Source of the DNA: Chloroflexota bacterium
Lineage (GTDB): Bacteria > Chloroflexota > Anaerolineae > UBA2200
DNA length: 64,000 nt
Direction: 5' to 3'
Assembly (NCBI GenBank): GCA_014360905.1
Contig: JACIWW010000016.1
Coordinates: 1-64,000, forward strand
Part shown: positions 2,815 to 64,000 of the stretch, piece by piece
Position numbering within the stretch: position 1 is the stretch's first letter
Layout of the letters: each line of letters starts with the position of its first letter
Program-made: the position numbers and the translations under genes
Notes under the pieces: generated by a model
Database searches by the model: none
Seen by the model: only the letters and a program-made list of their open reading frames with translations
Told to the model about the DNA's origin: nothing

Positions 2815-3185
2815 CGCAGTGATGAAAACCTCGCTAACCCTCCCTCTCCTGCGCTGCAGGAGAGATTTTGCTCCAAGGCGGACAACAGTCCACTGCGTCC
2901 TGGCGGGTTTGTAGTGAGCGCTTCAGCGCTCGGATTGCCTCACCCCCGGCCCCCTCTCCTACAGCGTAGGAGAGGGGCTTTTTGCGCGGGCTGTTGCCCA
3001 TTGATGCCAGGGATTGAAATCCCTGGCTAAAAGCGAACAGCCCCTTTCAGGGGCTTCTCACATTCAGCTGGGGAATTCATTCCTCGGCTATGCTCCAAGG
3101 CGGACAACAGTCCGCCGCCTTCTGGCATGGGCTGTTGCCCACGCGTTGCAGGGGCGTAATTGAATTGCATCCCTGCAACGCTCAT
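2815..3185. repeat. Mosaic island of hairpin repeats
   Basis: This 636-bp gap between divergent genes (2697-3333) holds no credible gene. It contains, in order, a GGCGGAC-AACA-GTCC type hairpin, a GTAG-footed TGAGCGC-TTCA-GCGCTC hairpin (about 2911-2933), a long hairpin built on CCTCTCCTAC-AGC-GTAGGAGAGG, and CCAGGGAT-TGAA-ATCCCTGG (about 3006-3026). These are followed by GCCCCT-TTC-AGGGGC, a GGGGAA-TTCA-TTCC type hairpin and further copies of the GGCGGAC and GTGGGC classes. The same order of modules recurs in islands near 34, 38, 51 and 57 kb. Confidence 0.85.
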
Positions 3186-14274: not shown

Positions 14275-14485
14275 GTTCGTAGCGCGCACTTTAATGCGCT
14301 TTGTCGTTCGTAGCGCGCACTTTAATGCGCTTTCGTTCGTAGTGCGCACTTTAATGCGCTTCGTTCGTAGTGCGCACTTTAGTGCGCTTCGTCGTTCGTA
14401 GTGCGCACTTTAATGCGCTTTGTCGTTCGTAGTGCGCACTTTAGTGCGCTTCGTCGTTCGTAGTGCGCACTTTGCTTTGCGCTGC
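14275..14485. repeat. Seven-unit tandem array of GTAG-footed palindromes
   Basis: GTTCGTAG occurs at about 14275, 14305, 14334, 14363, 14393, 14424 and 14455, a period of 29-31 bp. Each is followed by a hairpin of the type TGCGCAC-TTTA-GTGCGC, with some units GCGCGCAC or AATGCGC. Short spacers such as TTTGTC and TTCGTC vary. The last unit is degenerate. All units share one orientation, and there is no transposase gene next to this array. Confidence 0.9.
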
Positions 14486-33894: not shown

Positions 33895-34180
33895 GCTATG
33901 CTTGTAGTGAGCGCTTCAGCGCTCGGACTGCCTCTCCCCCTGGGAGATGGCCATCAGCGAATAGGGGAACGAATAGGCAGAGATTCGTTCATTCGTTTTG
34001 GCGCAGCCATTCGTTGATGGCATTCCTGTCCCAGGCGGACAACAGTCCGCCTGCATTCTTGGCGTGGACTATTGTCCACGCCAAGCAGATGCCAGGGATT
34101 GAAACCCCTGGCTAAAAGCGAAAAACTCCTTTCAGGGGCTTCTCACTTCAGCCGGGGAATTCATTCCCCGGCTATGTCCT
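33895..34180. repeat. Mosaic hairpin-repeat island
   Basis: The 364-bp gap 33818-34181 holds no gene. In order it has a GTAG-footed TGAGCGC-TTCA-GCGCTC hairpin (about 33905-33927), an inverted pair GGCCATCAGCGAAT / ATTCGTTGATGGC (about 33948-34022), GGCGGAC-AACA-GTCCGCC (about 34034-34051) and a GCGTGGAC-TATT-GTCCACGC hairpin. The end is the block CCAGGGAT-TGAA, GCCCCTGAAA class, CCGGGGAA-TTCA-TTCCCCGG (about 34091-34175), which abuts the stop of the next gene. Confidence 0.85.
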
Positions 34181-38109: not shown

Positions 38110-38580
38110 CGCCGCGGGCGATTTCACCCTATTCGTTGATGGCCATCATCACATTGCTCCAGGCGGACAACAGTCCGCGCCAGGGATTGAAATCCCTGGC
38201 TAAAAATGACAAGCCCCTGAAGGGGCTTCTCACATTCAGCCGGGGAATTCATTCCCCGGCCACGCTAGCGCGCTGAAGCGCGCACTACGAACCCAACAGG
38301 AAAGGTGGTTAGAAAAGCCTCCCTGCACTACACGCTACCTCCTCTCCTGTAGCAGGAGAGGGGACGAGGGGTGAGGTCCTTGCTCCAGGCGGACAAGAGT
38401 CCGCCGTCCCCTGGCGTGAGTTCGTAGTGAGCGCTTCAGCGCTCATGCGCACTACGAACTTATCTCACTGCTCTAAGGCGGACTGCTCATGCGCACTGAA
38501 GTGCGCACTACGAACTTATCTCACTGCTCTAAGGCGGACTGTTGTCCACGCCGAGCGGAAAGGCGGCTCCTGGCACGGGC
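38110..38580. repeat. Long mosaic hairpin-repeat island, part inverted-duplicated at 51 kb
   Basis: The gap 38099-38782 holds a long repeat mosaic, then a promoter and leader. Modules are ATTCGTTGATGGCC, GGCGGAC-AACA-GTCCGC, CCAGGGAT-TGAA-ATCCCTGG, GCCCCT-GA-AGGGGC, CCGGGGAA-TTCA-TTCCCCGG (about 38241-38260), and GCGCGCTGAAGCGCGC in inverted orientation followed by CTAC. A unique 47-bp stretch (38287-38333) and its flanks recur, inverted, at 51014-51110. Two direct copies of a segment with GCGCACTGAAGTGCGC, CTACGAAC and TTATCTCACTGCTCTAAGGC follow (about 38444-38540). Confidence 0.85.
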
Positions 38581-50929: not shown

Positions 50930-51480
50930 GAGATTTCAATCCCTGGCCCTGCTTGGCGTGGGCAACAGCCCGCGCAAAAAGCCCCTCTCCTACAGCGTAG
51001 GAGAGGGGCCGCGTGTAGTGCAGGGAGGCTTTTCTAACCACCTTTCCTGTTGGGTTCGTAGTGCGCGCTTCGCGCTAGCGTGGCCGGGGAATGAATTCCC
51101 CGGCTGACTGCGAGAAGCCTCTTCAGGGGCTTGTCGCTTTTAGCCAAGGATTTCAATCCCTGGCCTCTGCTTGGCGTGGGCAACAGCCCATGCAAAAAGC
51201 CCCTCTCCTACAGCGTAGGAGAGGGGCCGGGGTGAGGCAATCCGAGCGCTGAAGCGCTCACTACAAACCCGCCTAAAGACGGCGGACTGTTGTCCGCCTG
51301 GAGCAAACTTTGCCGCCTGCGGTGGATCGTAGTGGCGGTGTGGAGGCTACGAATACGGCGGCGTGGGAGCCGCCTCTGCAAAGCGCAGCAGGCTGGGCTC
51401 CCATGCCCAGCCTGCATAGCCAGGGATTTCAATCCCTGGCCCGAGTGAGCGCTTTAAGCGCTTATGACAAATGCACACCC
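50930..51480. repeat. Mosaic hairpin-repeat island, mostly in reverse orientation
   Basis: The gap 50866-51523 holds no gene. Two long modules each carry a GTGGGC-AACA-GCCC hairpin followed by CCCTCTCCTAC-AGC-GTAGGAGAGGG (about 50957-51007 and 51176-51227). Between them are the 47-bp unique stretch shared with 38287-38333, a GTAG-footed hairpin, CCGGGGAA-TGAA-TTCCCCGG (about 51084-51103) and CAAGGATTTCAATCCCTGG. Then come GAGCGC-TGAA-GCGCTC plus CTAC (about 51243-51265), GGCGGAC-TGTT-GTCCGCC, and repeats ending in CTCCAAGGGAGAAGG before the GH36 stop. Confidence 0.85.
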
Positions 51481-57289: not shown

Positions 57290-57780
57290 CACAGTCCGCT
57301 GTCATCTCTGGCGTGGGTTCGTAGTGAGCGCTTCAGCGCTCATACGCGCCAGGGATTGAAATCCTTGCCTAAAAGGGAAAAGCCCCTAAAAGGGCTTTTC
57401 ACATTCAGCTGGGGAATCCATTCCCCGGCCATGCTCCAGGCGGACAACAGTCCGCTGTCATCTCTGGCGTGGGTTCGTAGTGAGCGCTTCAGCGCTCATA
57501 CGCGCCAGGGATTGAAATCCTTGCCTAAAAGGGAAAAGCCCCTAAAAAGGGCTTTTCACATTCAGCTGGGGAATCCATTCCCCGGCCACGCTCCAGGCGC
57601 ACTGAAGTGCGCACTACGAACCTGGCGCACTGAAGTGCGCACTACGAACCTGTACTGAAGGGGCTTCTCATCTTCAGCCGGGGAATTTATTCCCCGGCCA
57701 TGCTCCGGGCGGACAACAGTCCGCCGCCATTGCTGGCGTGCGCTGTTGCCCACGCCGAGCAGGAAGGGGATATAGACCCG
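57290..57780. repeat. Mosaic island with a 156-bp direct duplication
   Basis: The gap 57222-57852 holds this island, then the GH1 promoter. The block GTCATCTCTGGCGTGGG, GTAG-footed TGAGCGC-TTCA-GCGCTCA, CCAGGGAT-TGAA-ATCCTTG, AGCCCCTAAAAGGGCT and GGGGAA-TCCA-TTCCCC occurs twice with a 156-bp period (from about 57291 and 57447). Two direct copies of GCGCACTGAAGTGCGC plus CTACGAACCTG follow (about 57598-57650), then CCGGGGAA-TTTA-TTCCCCGG, GGCGGAC-AACA-GTCCGCC and TAGACCCGTCAGGTCTA. Confidence 0.88.
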
Positions 57781-59232: not shown

Positions 59233-59271
59233 TGCGGAAAGCGTAGCATGAGGTTATGGAGGAACGACGAC

Positions 59272-60168
59272 ATGAATGCATTTCTAGAACGATTGGGGTT
59301 CTCACCTGAGGAGCGCGTGGTCATCTTCCATGCGGACGATTTAGGCATGTGCCATGCCATGAACGAAGCGTTCATGGACATTGTGGCGCAGGGCATGCTG
59401 CGCACCGGTTCGGTGATGGTGCCCTGCCCGTGGTTTCCAGAACTGGCTACCTTCGCACGGAAGAACGCGGACGCGCTGGACGTGGGCGTGCACTTGACCC
59501 TGAACAGCGAATGGCACACGTACCGCTGGGGACCCATCTCCACCCGTGACCCGGCTAGTGGCCTGCTCGACGCGGAGGGCTACCTCTGGCGGGATACGGA
59601 GGCGCTGCACGCGCACATGGACGCGGAAGCCGCGGCGTCCGAACTGCGCGCGCAGATCGAACAGGCGCTGGCGGCTGGCGTGGACGTGACGCACATTGAT
59701 ACGCACATGGGGTCTGTGCTCCATCCCAGTCTGGCTCTTGTGTACATTGGCCTGGCGCAGGAATACCGCATCCCGGCGATGCTTCCGCGTCTTTCCGTGG
59801 CCGAACTCATGGAGATGGGCATAGCGCAAGACCTGGCGGAGATGTTCGTAGGCATGCTGAGTAGACTGGAAGAAAGCGGGACGTTGCCTGTGGTGGATCA
59901 CCTGCGCCTGTTGGAAACACCAACCACGAATAACCGCTGGGAGCAGTACGCTGAGGTATTGCATGCACTGCCGCCGGGCCTGACGCACTGTGTCTATCAC
60001 GCTGCCCGCCCAGGACCTGAGATCCAAGCCATTGCTCCTGACTGGCCCATGCGCGTTGCGGATTATCAGATCTTTGCCGGTGAGCAATTCACGCGCCTGG
60101 TACAAGAGACGGGTGTGAAGGTGCTGCGCTACCGCGACCTGCGCGACCTAATGCGAGCAGGTTCGTAG
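59272..60168 (+). CDS. ChbG/YdjC-family carbohydrate deacetylase
   Basis: A 298-residue protein of the YdjC/ChbG fold, a metal-dependent deacetylase acting on acetylated di- or oligosaccharides such as diacetylchitobiose. Motifs: VIFHADDLGMCHAMNEAF (first metal Asp), VGVHLTLNSEW and VTHIDTHMGSVLHPSL (two His). Start ATG 59272 lies 9 bp after GGAGG. The last codons (GGT TCG TAG) are part of the first GTTCGTAG repeat unit, so the repeat supplies the stop. With the GH1 gene upstream it suggests use of amino-sugar or beta-glucoside oligomers. Confidence 0.88.
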   Translation: MNAFLERLGFSPEERVVIFHADDLGMCHAMNEAFMDIVAQGMLRTGSVMVPCPWFPELATFARKNADALDVGVHLTLNSEWHTYRWGPISTRDPASGLLDAEGYLWRDTEALHAHMDAEAAASELRAQIEQALAAGVDVTHIDTHMGSVLHPSLALVYIGLAQEYRIPAMLPRLSVAELMEMGIAQDLAEMFVGMLSRLEESGTLPVVDHLRLLETPTTNNRWEQYAEVLHALPPGLTHCVYHAARPGPEIQAIAPDWPMRVADYQIFAGEQFTRLVQETGVKVLRYRDLRDLMRAGS

Positions 60169-60478
60169 TGCGCACTTTAGTGCGCTATAAAGCGCTGAAG
60201 CGCTCAGGGTTGGTAGTGCGCACTTTAGTGCAGGGTTCGTAGTGCGCACTTTAGTGCGCCATAAAACGCTGAAGCGCAGGTTCGTAGCGTGCACTTTGCG
60301 CTATAAAGCGCTGAAGCGCAGGTTCGTAGCGCGCACTTTGCGCTATAAAGCGCTGCGCACTTTAGTGCAGGGTTCGTAGCGCGCACTTTGCGCTATAAAG
60401 CGCTGCGCACTTTAGTGCGCAGGGTTCGTAGTGCGCACTTTAGTGCGCTATAGAGCGCTTCAGCGCTCGCTACAAACT
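60163..60478. repeat. Left palindrome array beside the RAYT gene
   Basis: Seven GTAG feet (GTTCGTAG or GGTTGGTAG) are each followed by GCGCAC-type hairpins (TGCGCAC-TTTA-GTGCGCA, some truncated). They alternate with GCGCT-GAA-GCGC units joined by the linker TATAAA or TATAGA. All feet point toward the transposase except the last, inverted GCTAC at about 60466. The array begins within the stop codon of the deacetylase gene. Confidence 0.92.
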
Positions 60479-60501
60479 ACAAAACGAAAGCGAGGCTTAT
60501 C

Positions 60502-61107
60502 TTGTACGAATATCGCAAGCTCACACTGCAGCAACGTCGCAAACTGGTAAAAGAGCGGCTGGATCGAGGCTATCCGCCTCACTCACCACCGCATCCCGTG
60601 CGCGATCAACAACTTTATCTACTGACAGCGGCTTGTTATGAGCACGCACAGCACATGTATTTGCCTGAGCGTCGCCGGCAAGTGCTGGATGCTCTCTTTG
60701 AAACGTTTACCCTACATGGCATCGAAATGCGCGCCTGGGTCATTCTGCCGAATCACTATCATATCCTTGCATATGTGCCGGATTTCAACTTGCTAGGAGG
60801 ATTTTTCCGTTACATCCATGGTTCGATAGCTCGTCAATGGAATATCGAAGATGCCACACCTAGGCGCAAAGTTTGGTATCGTTTCAGTGACCGCGCTATT
60901 CGCTCAGAGCGGCATTATTATACAACGCTAAACTATATCCATTACAACCCAGTGAAGCATCGCTGGGTTATTTCACCTTATGAGTGGAGTGAGAGCAGTG
61001 TGCGTTGGTATATAGAGCATTATGGACGTGAGTGGCTGCAGGATCTTTGGGTTACTTATCCTATTCGTGATTATGGCCGCGGGTGGGATGAGTTCCCTAT
61101 ACTTTGA
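60502..61107 (+). CDS. REP-associated tyrosine transposase (RAYT, TnpA-REP type)
   Basis: A 201-residue single-strand nuclease of the Y1/HUH family. The metal-binding His pair is in LPNHYHIL (His85, His87). The catalytic tyrosine is probably Tyr145 in TTLNYIHYNPVKH, the typical RAYT motif. The N-terminal QLYLLTAACYEHA strand and FRYIHGSIARQWN helix fit the family. RAYTs bind palindromes with a GTAG foot and are thought to move REP elements. It starts at TTG 60502. The gene is complete and sits between two arrays with GTAG-footed palindromes, with no other gene between. Confidence 0.9.
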   Translation: MYEYRKLTLQQRRKLVKERLDRGYPPHSPPHPVRDQQLYLLTAACYEHAQHMYLPERRRQVLDALFETFTLHGIEMRAWVILPNHYHILAYVPDFNLLGGFFRYIHGSIARQWNIEDATPRRKVWYRFSDRAIRSERHYYTTLNYIHYNPVKHRWVISPYEWSESSVRWYIEHYGREWLQDLWVTYPIRDYGRGWDEFPIL

Positions 61108-61109
61108 GG

Positions 61110-61496
61110 AGAGCGCTGAAGCGCTCACTACAAACGAACAGGGTTGGTGCGCTATAGAGCGCTGAAGCGCTCAGGGTTGGTAGTGCGCACTTTAGTGCGC
61201 TATAGAGCGCTGAAGCGCTCACTACAAACGGTGCGCTATAAAGCGCTGAAGCGCTCAGGGTTGGTAGTGCGCACTTTGCGCTATAGAGCGCTGAAGCGCT
61301 CAGGGTTGGTAGTGCGCACTTTAGTGCGCTATAGATCGCTGAAGCGCTCAGGGTTGGTAGTGCGCACTTTAGTGCGCTATAGAGCGCTGAAGCGCTCACT
61401 ACAAACGAACAGGATTGGTGCGCTATAGAGCGCTGAAGCGCAGGTTCGTAGTGCGCACTTTAGTGCGCAGAGCGCTGAAGCGCTCACTACAAACTT
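61110..61496. repeat. Right palindrome array beside the RAYT gene
   Basis: About nine AGCGCT-GA-AGCGCT hairpins, several followed by CACTACAAAC (inverted GTAG foot), alternate with five direct GTAG-footed TGCGCAC-TTTA-GTGCGC units. The linkers are TATAGA or TATAAA and AGGGTTG. The pattern is head-to-head and head-to-tail pairs of two palindrome classes, as in proteobacterial BIMEs. It ends 17 bp before the next gene. Confidence 0.92.
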
Positions 61497-61512: not shown

Positions 61513-64000
61513 ATGATGCGCCGATGGATGCAAGCAATCATTGCGGTGCTTGTCTTTGTCGCTGTGGCAGCCCAGGTTCGGGCTGATACTGCTCTCCGCA
61601 TCTACTACGCCGGCCCTGAGGATGGCGTGCGCCAAGCGCTGGGTCTAGCGAGCGAGTTTGTCTTCACCAACGACCCCTCTCAGGCGCAGGTGCTGGTGCT
61701 CAACGGCACTGTCCCCGACCGCGAGGGGTTCGCATCCCGCGTCAGGCAAGGCGCGGGGCTGGTGCTCATCCTCGGCCCAAGCCTCAGCACAGAGGATGTG
61801 GCGACTCTCTTGGGCGTCCCGGTTGGGCTAGAACGCCAGGATACGCCGCTCAGCCTGATCCCCGCCAAGGGCATCGCCGACCCGCTATTGCGCGAGATCA
61901 TCTGGACCAGCGCCCCACAGGTGCGGCAGCGCTTTTCCCTGGTCAGCCCTGCTTCTGACCTCATGCCCCTTGTCCTGGGCTTCGAGGACAGTTCGTTTGT
62001 CCTGGGGGTCAGGCAGGTAGGACAGGGACGCGCCTATGTCTTCACCCCGTTTCTCGATGAGTCCAATCCGCAATTCCAAGGCTGGGCTTATTTCAATTAC
62101 CTCATCTATCACCTCACTGCCCGCGTGGGTGGGTTGACTCCTCTCTCCTTTGCCGACTATCCCGGTTCGCCGGTGCCGCACGAGCGTGAGCGCGCCATGT
62201 TGTACCTCGCGCTGGCAGGCATGCTGGTCTTGGTGGGCATTGTCTTCGTCCTGGTGCGCCGCTACAGCCAGCGCCATCCCGAGGCGCTCGACGCGCTGGT
62301 AGCTGACCGTGCACGTTTCATGGCACATGAGGCGGGGACCGATTGGGAGGAAGTGGGCTTCCACCGTCCCTTGGGCGGCTTCCTGGTGGCGCTGATGCTG
62401 GGCATCCTCCTGTTCATCCCGCTCATCATTTACCAGAACCTGGTGCTGCCCGTATACATCCTGCCATCGGCGCAGGCACTGGGCATTTGGGGACGCGTGG
62501 TGCAATTCTTCAACCTGCTGTGGCTGCTGTTCGACATGGGCACCAGCGTCGCGTTCATCAAGTTCTTCGCCCAGTACCGCGTGCACGATCCGCGCCGTGC
62601 CATCCAGTATGGCCAGGTGTTCGTGTGGTGGCAGGCGCTGTCCGGCGCATTCCAGGTGGCGCTGGTCACGGCCATCGCCGGGACACTGCTGCCACATACC
62701 AGTTATGCCCTCTATACCTGGAGCATCATCATCCACACTATGATCCAGATTCCCGGCTTTCTGCAGGTGATGCGCCATGCCCTGATGGCCTGGCAGCGTT
62801 CGGATTATGCGCAGATACTCGATGTAGGGCTCTACACCCTCTTCCCCATGCTCACCCAGCCAGTGCTGGTGACGCTGATGGTATCCTGGGGGCGCAGCCA
62901 CCCCGTTTTTGGCGTGCCCATGAGCGGGGTGCTAGGGCTGGGGCTTGCCGCCTATGCCACCGAACTGCTCACTTTCCTCTTCGGGCTGTGGCTATACCGT
63001 CGCTTGGGCTACAACGCACGGCTCTTGTTCCTGGCTCATTTCGATTGGGACGTGGTGAAAGAAGCCTTCCGTTTTGGTGCATTCGAGATGCTGGGCTCGG
63101 TAGCGTGGGGCGTGGGACAGTCGGTGGAGATCCTGATCACGCAGACGCGGCTGGTGAACTATGCCGAAGTCTGGGGCAATTGGGGCATCGCCCAGAATTT
63201 CATCCTTGGCTACCAGGTGGTAGGCAACCTGTACAATAGCCTGGTGCCGGCGATTTCGGAGGCCATCTCGCATGCCCGCCGCGCCTTGAGCCAATACTAT
63301 GCCGTGATGGCGTACAAGTGGGGCGGCTTCATCAGCGCCTTCGTTGCGGCAGTGCTGCTGGCCACCGCTGACCGCTTCATCCTGGGCGCCACAGGACCGG
63401 AATTCGTGCGCGCAGCGACCTATGCCGTGCCTCTCATCATCTGGGGTGCTATCCAATACCCCTCATGGGTGGGCGATAACGTCCAGTTGGCCGCCAACCG
63501 TCCCTACCTCAAAGCGCTGCTCGTAGCCGCTGAACAGATGGTGCGCATCGTGCTGGCCTTCCTACTGGTGGAGCGCTTCCAGATCAACGCGCTCATCATC
63601 GCCTACTTCATCGGGCTCTTGTCCAAAGACATCGTCGCCTATTTCGTCAACCACCGCCTGTGCTTCCCGCAGCGCTTTTACTTCTGGCAATCGCTGGGGG
63701 CACCCATATTGGCTGGGGCAGCGCACTATGCGGTGCTGCGCTGGGTTGGCGGGCTGATCTGGTGCGGCGACCAGATCACCAGCGTGCTCATCTTCTTCAT
63801 CGCCATCCTGCCCTCCTACCCGCTCTTTGTCTTCTTCTATGGGCTGTTTGGTGGCTGGGATGACGCCACTCTGGACGAACTGCGCCGCGCCGTGGACTTG
63901 AGCACGTTCCTGCGTCCCTTGGCTTGGCTCTTCTGGGCCGGCTCGGCACTGGGCGCACGCCTCAGCCCTCTGCACGGACGCTTCCCCATTGACATCCGCG
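61513..64000 (+). CDS. GATase1-like domain fused to a MOP-type polysaccharide flippase (runs off the end)
   Basis: An unbroken frame from ATG 61513 (GGAGAAG upstream) to the window end, 829 residues so far. A signal peptide (about residues 6-24) is followed by an extracytoplasmic domain (about 28-205) with alternating strands (YYAGPEDGVRQALG, QVLVLNGTV, GLVLILGPSL, GRAYVFTPFLDESNPQFQG). This resembles type 1 glutamine-amidotransferase-like domains without an evident catalytic Cys. After a helix at about 233-255, some 12 helices follow with the Wzx/MOP look (FDMGTSVAFIKFFAQYR, FGAFEMLGSVAWGVGQSVEI, LVPAISEAI). It likely flips a lipid-linked glycan. Confidence 0.8.
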   Translation, partial: MMRRWMQAIIAVLVFVAVAAQVRADTALRIYYAGPEDGVRQALGLASEFVFTNDPSQAQVLVLNGTVPDREGFASRVRQGAGLVLILGPSLSTEDVATLLGVPVGLERQDTPLSLIPAKGIADPLLREIIWTSAPQVRQRFSLVSPASDLMPLVLGFEDSSFVLGVRQVGQGRAYVFTPFLDESNPQFQGWAYFNYLIYHLTARVGGLTPLSFADYPGSPVPHERERAMLYLALAGMLVLVGIVFVLVRRYSQRHPEALDALVADRARFMAHEAGTDWEEVGFHRPLGGFLVALMLGILLFIPLIIYQNLVLPVYILPSAQALGIWGRVVQFFNLLWLLFDMGTSVAFIKFFAQYRVHDPRRAIQYGQVFVWWQALSGAFQVALVTAIAGTLLPHTSYALYTWSIIIHTMIQIPGFLQVMRHALMAWQRSDYAQILDVGLYTLFPMLTQPVLVTLMVSWGRSHPVFGVPMSGVLGLGLAAYATELLTFLFGLWLYRRLGYNARLLFLAHFDWDVVKEAFRFGAFEMLGSVAWGVGQSVEILITQTRLVNYAEVWGNWGIAQNFILGYQVVGNLYNSLVPAISEAISHARRALSQYYAVMAYKWGGFISAFVAAVLLATADRFILGATGPEFVRAATYAVPLIIWGAIQYPSWVGDNVQLAANRPYLKALLVAAEQMVRIVLAFLLVERFQINALIIAYFIGLLSKDIVAYFVNHRLCFPQRFYFWQSLGAPILAGAAHYAVLRWVGGLIWCGDQITSVLIFFIAILPSYPLFVFFYGLFGGWDDATLDELRRAVDLSTFLRPLAWLFWAGSALGARLSPLHGRFPIDIR

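Follow-up and report, generated by a model that had tools for sequence, protein, structure and literature searches.

The window, by which we mean the whole 64,000-nucleotide stretch analysed here (positions 1–64000 of contig C16 of assembly G000, 2.83 Mb in 49 contigs), very probably carries a REPtron. It pairs a RAYT of subclass 2.8 (TnpA-Y1/HUH superfamily), present once and with its catalytic motifs intact, with a cognate population of REP hairpins, whose two palindrome classes, A and B, form the arms of one inverted, feet-outward heterodimer (REPIN/BIME). An array of GTAG-footed hairpins stands on either side of the intact RAYT, and the locus is laid out as follows.

59248..60168, + strand: YdjC-like carbohydrate deacetylase, upstream neighbor (ORF coordinates, PF04794)
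60165..60473, both strands: upstream REP array with seven plus-strand GTAG feet; class A hairpins, inverse class B copies and one flipped copy
60502..61107, + strand: RAYT/TnpA-REP gene, 201 aa, with HUH motif N84-H85-Y86-H87, catalytic Tyr145 and subclass 2.8 motifs (NF047646, 4ER8)
61111..61490, both strands: downstream REP array, class A forward alternating with class B inverse in a 48-bp repeat unit
61513..64000, + strand: membrane protein, downstream neighbor, continuing past the window end; an 88% identical orthologue adjoins the RAYT in the same-genus genome G001 (hereafter the congener)

The reading frame and catalytic motifs of the RAYT are intact, with HYH at residues 85–87 and the tyrosine of YIHYNP at 145, confirming the HUH transposase that an earlier note had placed between two GTAG-footed arrays. 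Its start codon is TTG, as in the congener gene. That gene is 77% identical and stands upstream of the 88% identical copy of the same downstream neighbor, which indicates a fixed locus; its upstream neighbor differs. No second RAYT copy above 33% identity was found in the assembly, so this is a single gene and not a multicopy insertion sequence. The upstream deacetylase gene encodes a full-length domain and ends in a TAG stop codon that sits within the first GTAG foot (60165–60168).

Because a Pfam search of the RAYT protein gave no match, its identification rests on NCBIfam and the PDB. It scored 90.8 bits against a cut-off of 80 for the NCBIfam REP-associated tyrosine transposase family (REP_Tyr_transpos, NF047646), and its top PDB match by sequence was E. 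coli TnpA-REP on a REP hairpin (4ER8, E 1.1e-8), with the HUH motif and Tyr aligned. An AlphaFold2 model (mean pLDDT 78.8) had the same structure as its top Foldseek match (E 2e-7), with the IS200/IS605 transposases IS608/ISDra2 ranked lower. The HUH motif and single Tyr are invariant across six aligned homologues, as are Trp-Tyr, Asp-Arg and the final Arg of the foot-recognition region. Of the E. coli TnpA-REP residues discussed for foot recognition (Trp94, Gln95, Glu100, His101 and Arg104; PMC6006769), the window RAYT keeps Trp94 and Arg104 and carries Asp for Glu100, Arg for His101 and Tyr for Gln95. Subclass 2.8 is marked by NHYH, W[YH], YIHYNP, a length of about 199 aa and a proline-rich N-terminus (PMC6006769); by eye against the published table, the window protein matches with NHYH, WY, YIHYNP, a proline-rich N-terminus and 201 aa. 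In an 88-row tree it clusters with Chloroflexota sequences, and the clade around them (support 96/99) is mostly cyanobacterial; a second Chloroflexota clade stands apart from this group. This placement, beside cyanobacterial and only some of the Chloroflexota sequences and away from that second clade, does not support simple vertical inheritance throughout the class.

The hairpins share a constant format, GTAG-T-6bp stem-TTYA-6bp stem. The earlier note had written the two classes as TGCGCAC-TTTA-GTGCGCA and TGAGCGC-TTCA-GCGCTCA; both are real, and the outer T:A pair is present in some copies only. Its count of about 12 direct GTAG feet and several CTAC feet also held, as positions 60163–61496 contain 12 GTAG and 8 CTAC, with 7 + 5 GTAG and 2 + 4 CTAC inside the two arrays. 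In both arrays class B is carried on the minus strand, and five of these B copies lack the CTAC foot. The individual copies are listed below.

60165, 60239 and 60428, + strand: full class A hairpins, GTAG-T-GCGCAC-TTTA-GTGCGC, upstream array
60213, 60284, 60326 and 60376, + strand: shortened or collapsed class A hairpins, upstream array
near 60405: footless class A copy, upstream array
60453–60473: flipped hairpin, its loop reversed relative to the foot (TTCA on the plus strand, CTAC at the 3' end)
61180, 61264 (shortened), 61309, 61357 and 61448, + strand: class A, downstream array
61111–61131, 61205–61225, 61382–61402 and 61470–61490, − strand: footed class B, downstream array, with footless copies in between

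Over the whole window, GTAGTGCGCAC occurs 30 times at no more than one mismatch, compared with 1.35 expected, and GTAGTGAGCGCTTCAGCGC 17 times at no more than three mismatches, compared with 0.02 expected. The copies outside the RAYT locus comprise a second array, a composite element and dispersed units.

2911..2931, + strand: single class B REP
14279..14480, + strand: second class A array, TTTA loops, seven tandem GTAG feet
33904..33924, + strand: single class B REP
38268..38511: dispersed REPs, namely a GCGCGC variant (−), B (+) and A (−)
51244..51264, − strand: single class B REP
57321..57645, both strands: dispersed composite element in which two B+ copies are followed by two A− copies, with further hairpins in between; a mirror-image copy lies at C16:64148–64473, just past the window

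We counted REP copies by pattern search of the assembly and within 390 kb of its DNA. At no more than three mismatches, the class A pattern GTAGTGCGCACTTTAGTGCGC matched 59 assembly sites and the class B pattern GTAGTGAGCGCTTCAGCGCTC matched 91, with no matches for either reversed-pattern control; a few places are counted in both lists, which together hold about 150 near-matches in 2.83 Mb, nearly all with a GTAG foot. The foot proved consistent genome-wide, as the earlier note had anticipated, with an exact GTAG at 47 of 51 assembly places bearing the class A stem pattern GCGCNNTTYANNGCGC. Within the 390 kb, GTAG stood exactly one base from the stem in 117/211 TTYA hairpins and in 8/3133 of those with a different 4-nt loop; of the 117 footed TTYA hairpins, 116 had T as the spacer base.

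REPs are concentrated on contigs 9, 12, 13, 16, 21, 23 and 40, with the other large contigs nearly devoid of them; Thermomicrobium roseum REPs show similar clustering (PMC3733652). Composite elements occur at 57321–57645 in the window and at C16:64148–64473, C21:25794–26153, C23:43073–43670 and C40:7108–7672. Their B and A' arms, with a recurrent spacing of 118 bp, enclose three more hairpins (GCCAGGGATTGAAATCCCTGGC, AAGCCCCTTTCAGGGGCTT and GCCGGGGAATTCATTCCCCGGC), and the two on C16 form a 419-bp, 94% identical inverted repeat flanking the RAYT region. The assembly encodes two other RAYT-like genes, on C7 (33% identity) and C23 (30% identity). Considered as alternative mobilizers, both were set aside, with no perfect 7-bp GTAG-footed hairpin in the 18–20 kb around each. 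The C7 gene (C7:29044–29538) is flanked by palindromes of the TGCTGAAGCCTCGCTTCAGCA type that lack a GTAG foot.

The arrangement of the two stem classes is regular. Among class A and B hairpins in the assembly, each of the 22 inverted neighbor pairs combines A with B (14 feet-out, 8 feet-in), and each of the 47 direct pairs is of one class (29 B, 18 A); tandem copies are not independent events. With inverted neighbors always A plus B and direct neighbors always of one class, the two classes are best read as arms of one asymmetric unit. The 14 feet-outward A/B pairs occur both dispersed and in tandem arrays, and the congener has such pairs too. Stems likewise differ in 160/186 inverted neighbors of other genomes and agree in 54/64 direct neighbors, making the inverted heterodimer (REPIN/BIME) the rule in this RAYT clade. 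Heterodimers of two different REPs were in fact already described (PMC3733652), so two stem classes with one nuclease, which the earlier note had called unusual, are not. The loops point the same way. The loop of Marinomonas REPMb (T12 T13 T14 A15) depends on T12, T13 and A15, position 14 being free (PMC8266576), and the window loops, TTTA and TTCA, differ only at the base matching that free position. Stem tolerance, and thus two stem classes served by one enzyme, would accordingly be expected from this comparison.

Folding predictions bear on why the arms might differ. A 46-nt A/B' unit from the window is predicted to form two REP hairpins (−14.1 kcal/mol), whereas a homodimer of the same 46-nt design is predicted to form one 21-bp hairpin (−27.0 kcal/mol); for one dispersed 44-nt B/A' unit, an imperfect long hairpin is favored. 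Of 75 distinct natural heterodimers 52% kept both hairpins; no homodimer did, whether artificial (150) or natural (13). Retention of two folded hairpins is thus a tendency of heterodimers, and its reading as a rule was rejected. We tentatively propose, while judging it rather doubtful, that in this RAYT clade the recognition code consists of the GTAG foot, the T spacer and the TTYA loop, with the stem largely free, and that the stem classes are kept different because collapse of a homodimer into one long hairpin would hide both recognition sites. Di Nocera et al. suggested that heterodimers escape hairpin-removing enzymes (PMC3733652); to this we add that they may also tend to keep the enzyme's substrate visible. 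The prevalence of heterodimers, for which that work found no obvious explanation, would be explained in part if homodimers do hide their sites, and the A/B arm pairing offers a testable reason for it.

The same format recurs beside related genes. In the congener, A and B stems are present and stand in the same relation to the RAYT gene as in the window. Elsewhere in the class, RAYT homologues at 45–52% identity have GTAG-T-hairpins on their flanks that keep the TTYA loop and differ in stem (e.g., AACGGC/GACGGC and AACGAC/GGCGAC). With a close homologue defined by E below 1e-50 and sites counted as GTAGT-N5-CTTYAG, all seven class genomes with one have at least 37 sites, compared with more than 10 in 4 of the 34 without (Fisher's test, ~1.5e-5, genome relatedness ignored). 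Genomes with sites and no detected close RAYT are G018 (185), G004 (47), G027 (27) and G013 (19); RAYT loss leaving orphan REPs, assembly gaps or another mobilizer has to be invoked for these four.

Across 80 homologous RAYT loci, 355 of the 388 GTAG-footed hairpins with a 4-nt loop have TTYA and 33 have other loops, while six of seven altered control feet give 0–2 TTYA hairpins and GTTG gives 15. The earlier expectation of such palindromes near orthologous RAYT genes was borne out, with at least one footed TTYA hairpin at 59 loci (on both strands at 50); the locus DNA examined at the remaining 21 contained none. Of the 113 distinct REPs, 105 have T as the spacer, and variation at the outer five stem positions preserves base pairing. 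Since the foot and loop of these 113 are invariant by selection, the loop counts, not the profile, are the evidence, and they show clearly that foot and loop, not stem sequence, stay constant across many bacterial phyla.

What the RAYT would do with these hairpins, namely binding, cleavage and strand transfer, we infer from known enzymes. When single-stranded, for example on the lagging strand, the REP strand would fold into its 6-bp hairpin. Recognition by the RAYT would rest on the GTAG foot, which stays unpaired, on the single T of the spacer and on the TTYA loop, and would tolerate changes in the stem. HYH and a metal ion would cut the strand beside the hairpin, Tyr145 holding the 5' end, and comparison with the enzymes of E. 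coli, S. maltophilia and Marinomonas (PMC8266576) suggests that GTAG may be used to choose a cut between C and T or between C and A. Rejoining of the cut strand elsewhere would let units spread or amplify, and arrays could also grow by tandem repetition.

Whether such movement continues was approached through orthologous sites. The array at 14279–14480 has seven tandem A feet in the window, compared with one diverged REP in the congener; array length, which the earlier note had proposed to compare among related strains, thus differs between the congeners. The congener's intergenic region orthologous to 33904 contains no class A or B REP, and the whole region is diverged. Arrays and copies have thus changed since the congeners split. 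This turnover lends indirect support to the earlier claim of an active or recently active mobilizer; current activity is inferred, as slippage and recombination account for array length as well as transposition does. A fossil system, in which the RAYT is retained (domesticated or decaying), REPs are no longer moved and array differences come from slippage and recombination only, is a serious if improbable alternative. The gene's fixed position in two congeners, relatives that have REPs and no detected close RAYT, a homologue in G002 with a premature stop and a broken second copy, and a tandem expansion at 14279–14480 that needs no transposase all fit it. The intact motifs and frame of the window RAYT, the uniform loop and foot, and a class B REP at 33904 without a congener counterpart argue against it, the last with the caveat that the whole region diverged.

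Two further readings fare worse. That the hairpins are transcription terminators or mRNA stabilizers lying next to the RAYT by chance is very unlikely. In its favor, the REPs examined are intergenic and the upstream gene takes its stop codon from the first foot. A terminator, however, has no need of a GTAG on one side only and at a constant spacing, and it would predict neither the presence of a RAYT nor A/B heterodimer pairing, and an Rfam search of the hairpins matched no family. A secondary role of the hairpins in RNA, beside their role with the RAYT, is compatible with these data. Least probable, to the point of being nearly negligible, is an insertion sequence of the IS200/IS605 type, delimited by ends of its own. 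Although it would share the HUH-Y1 superfamily and the lower-ranked structural matches to IS608/ISDra2, the RAYT family score exceeds its cut-off, 4ER8 ranks first by fold, the genome holds no second identical gene copy and no identical element copies, many separate hairpins occur without a gene, and the locus is conserved in the congener. The REPtron reading agrees with the RAYT and REP/BIME-like system named in the earlier note; weighing against it are the four relatives with sites and no detected close RAYT, the 21 loci without such a hairpin and the many footless copies in the arrays.

The window system is ordinary in kind and, as is well supported, a well-resolved addition to a poorly sampled RAYT subclass. 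In 2018, subclass 2.8 comprised eight proteins, from Cyanobacteria only, with relatives outside Cyanobacteria noted in nr (PMC6006769). Its members share with the window protein the motifs and approximate length given above and flanking REPs with a 5' GT[AG]G; the published hosts are Cyanobacteria, whereas the window comes from what is very probably a Chloroflexota MAG, and close kin of the window RAYT also occur in records labeled Acidobacteriota, Verrucomicrobiota, Calditrichota, Bacteroidota and Pseudomonadota. That paper calls the REPs of this subclass long, and the window stem measures 6 bp, or 8 with the outer and inner T:A pairs included. REPtron Mb of Marinomonas sp. MWYL1 (PMC8266576) has a similar short perfect stem, a spacer between GTAG and stem, and a TTTA loop, but its RAYT belongs to group 3 (subclass 2.5), with a 5-bp stem and a 2-base spacer in place of subclass 2.8 motifs, a 6-bp stem and a 1-base spacer. 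E. coli TnpA-REP (4ER8; PMC8266576) is also an HUH-Y1 nuclease with a GTAG foot and REPs as inverted dimers in BIMEs; E. coli REPs, however, are longer with an essential bulge, and E. coli Gln95 is Tyr in the window RAYT.

As early as 2013, PMC3733652 reported GTAG REPs, heterodimers, short loops of consensus TY, clustered arrays, REPtrons and Chloroflexi hosts. The GTAG-23 REPs of T. roseum are clustered in large blocks in what was then a member of Chloroflexi (NCBI now places the host in Thermomicrobiota), which leaves the earlier suggestion that long arrays are unusual for Chloroflexota weak. The present locus and its relatives carry subclass 2.8 beyond eight cyanobacterial sequences into Chloroflexota and further phyla, together with a clear cognate repeat, and the 113 distinct REPs, with one foot and loop format and many stems, amount to a natural experiment on what the enzyme reads.

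Several observations concern neighboring families and relatives. In G002 (loci L072 and L077), the homologue is cut short by a TGA in the place of a Trp codon; a second, broken remnant is closer to the window type. A second GTAG-footed palindrome family (GTAGGGGCG...) occurs in the window at 374, 18312, 30661(−) and 402(−), and at L068 4312–4694 and 10560–10698; some copies are footed at both ends, and the family is frequent around the congener's RAYT. In Caldilineaceae bacterium 354-166 (L166), the window's two stem classes (TGCGCAC and TGAGCGC, with TTCA loops) stand beside a RAYT that is only 59% identical.
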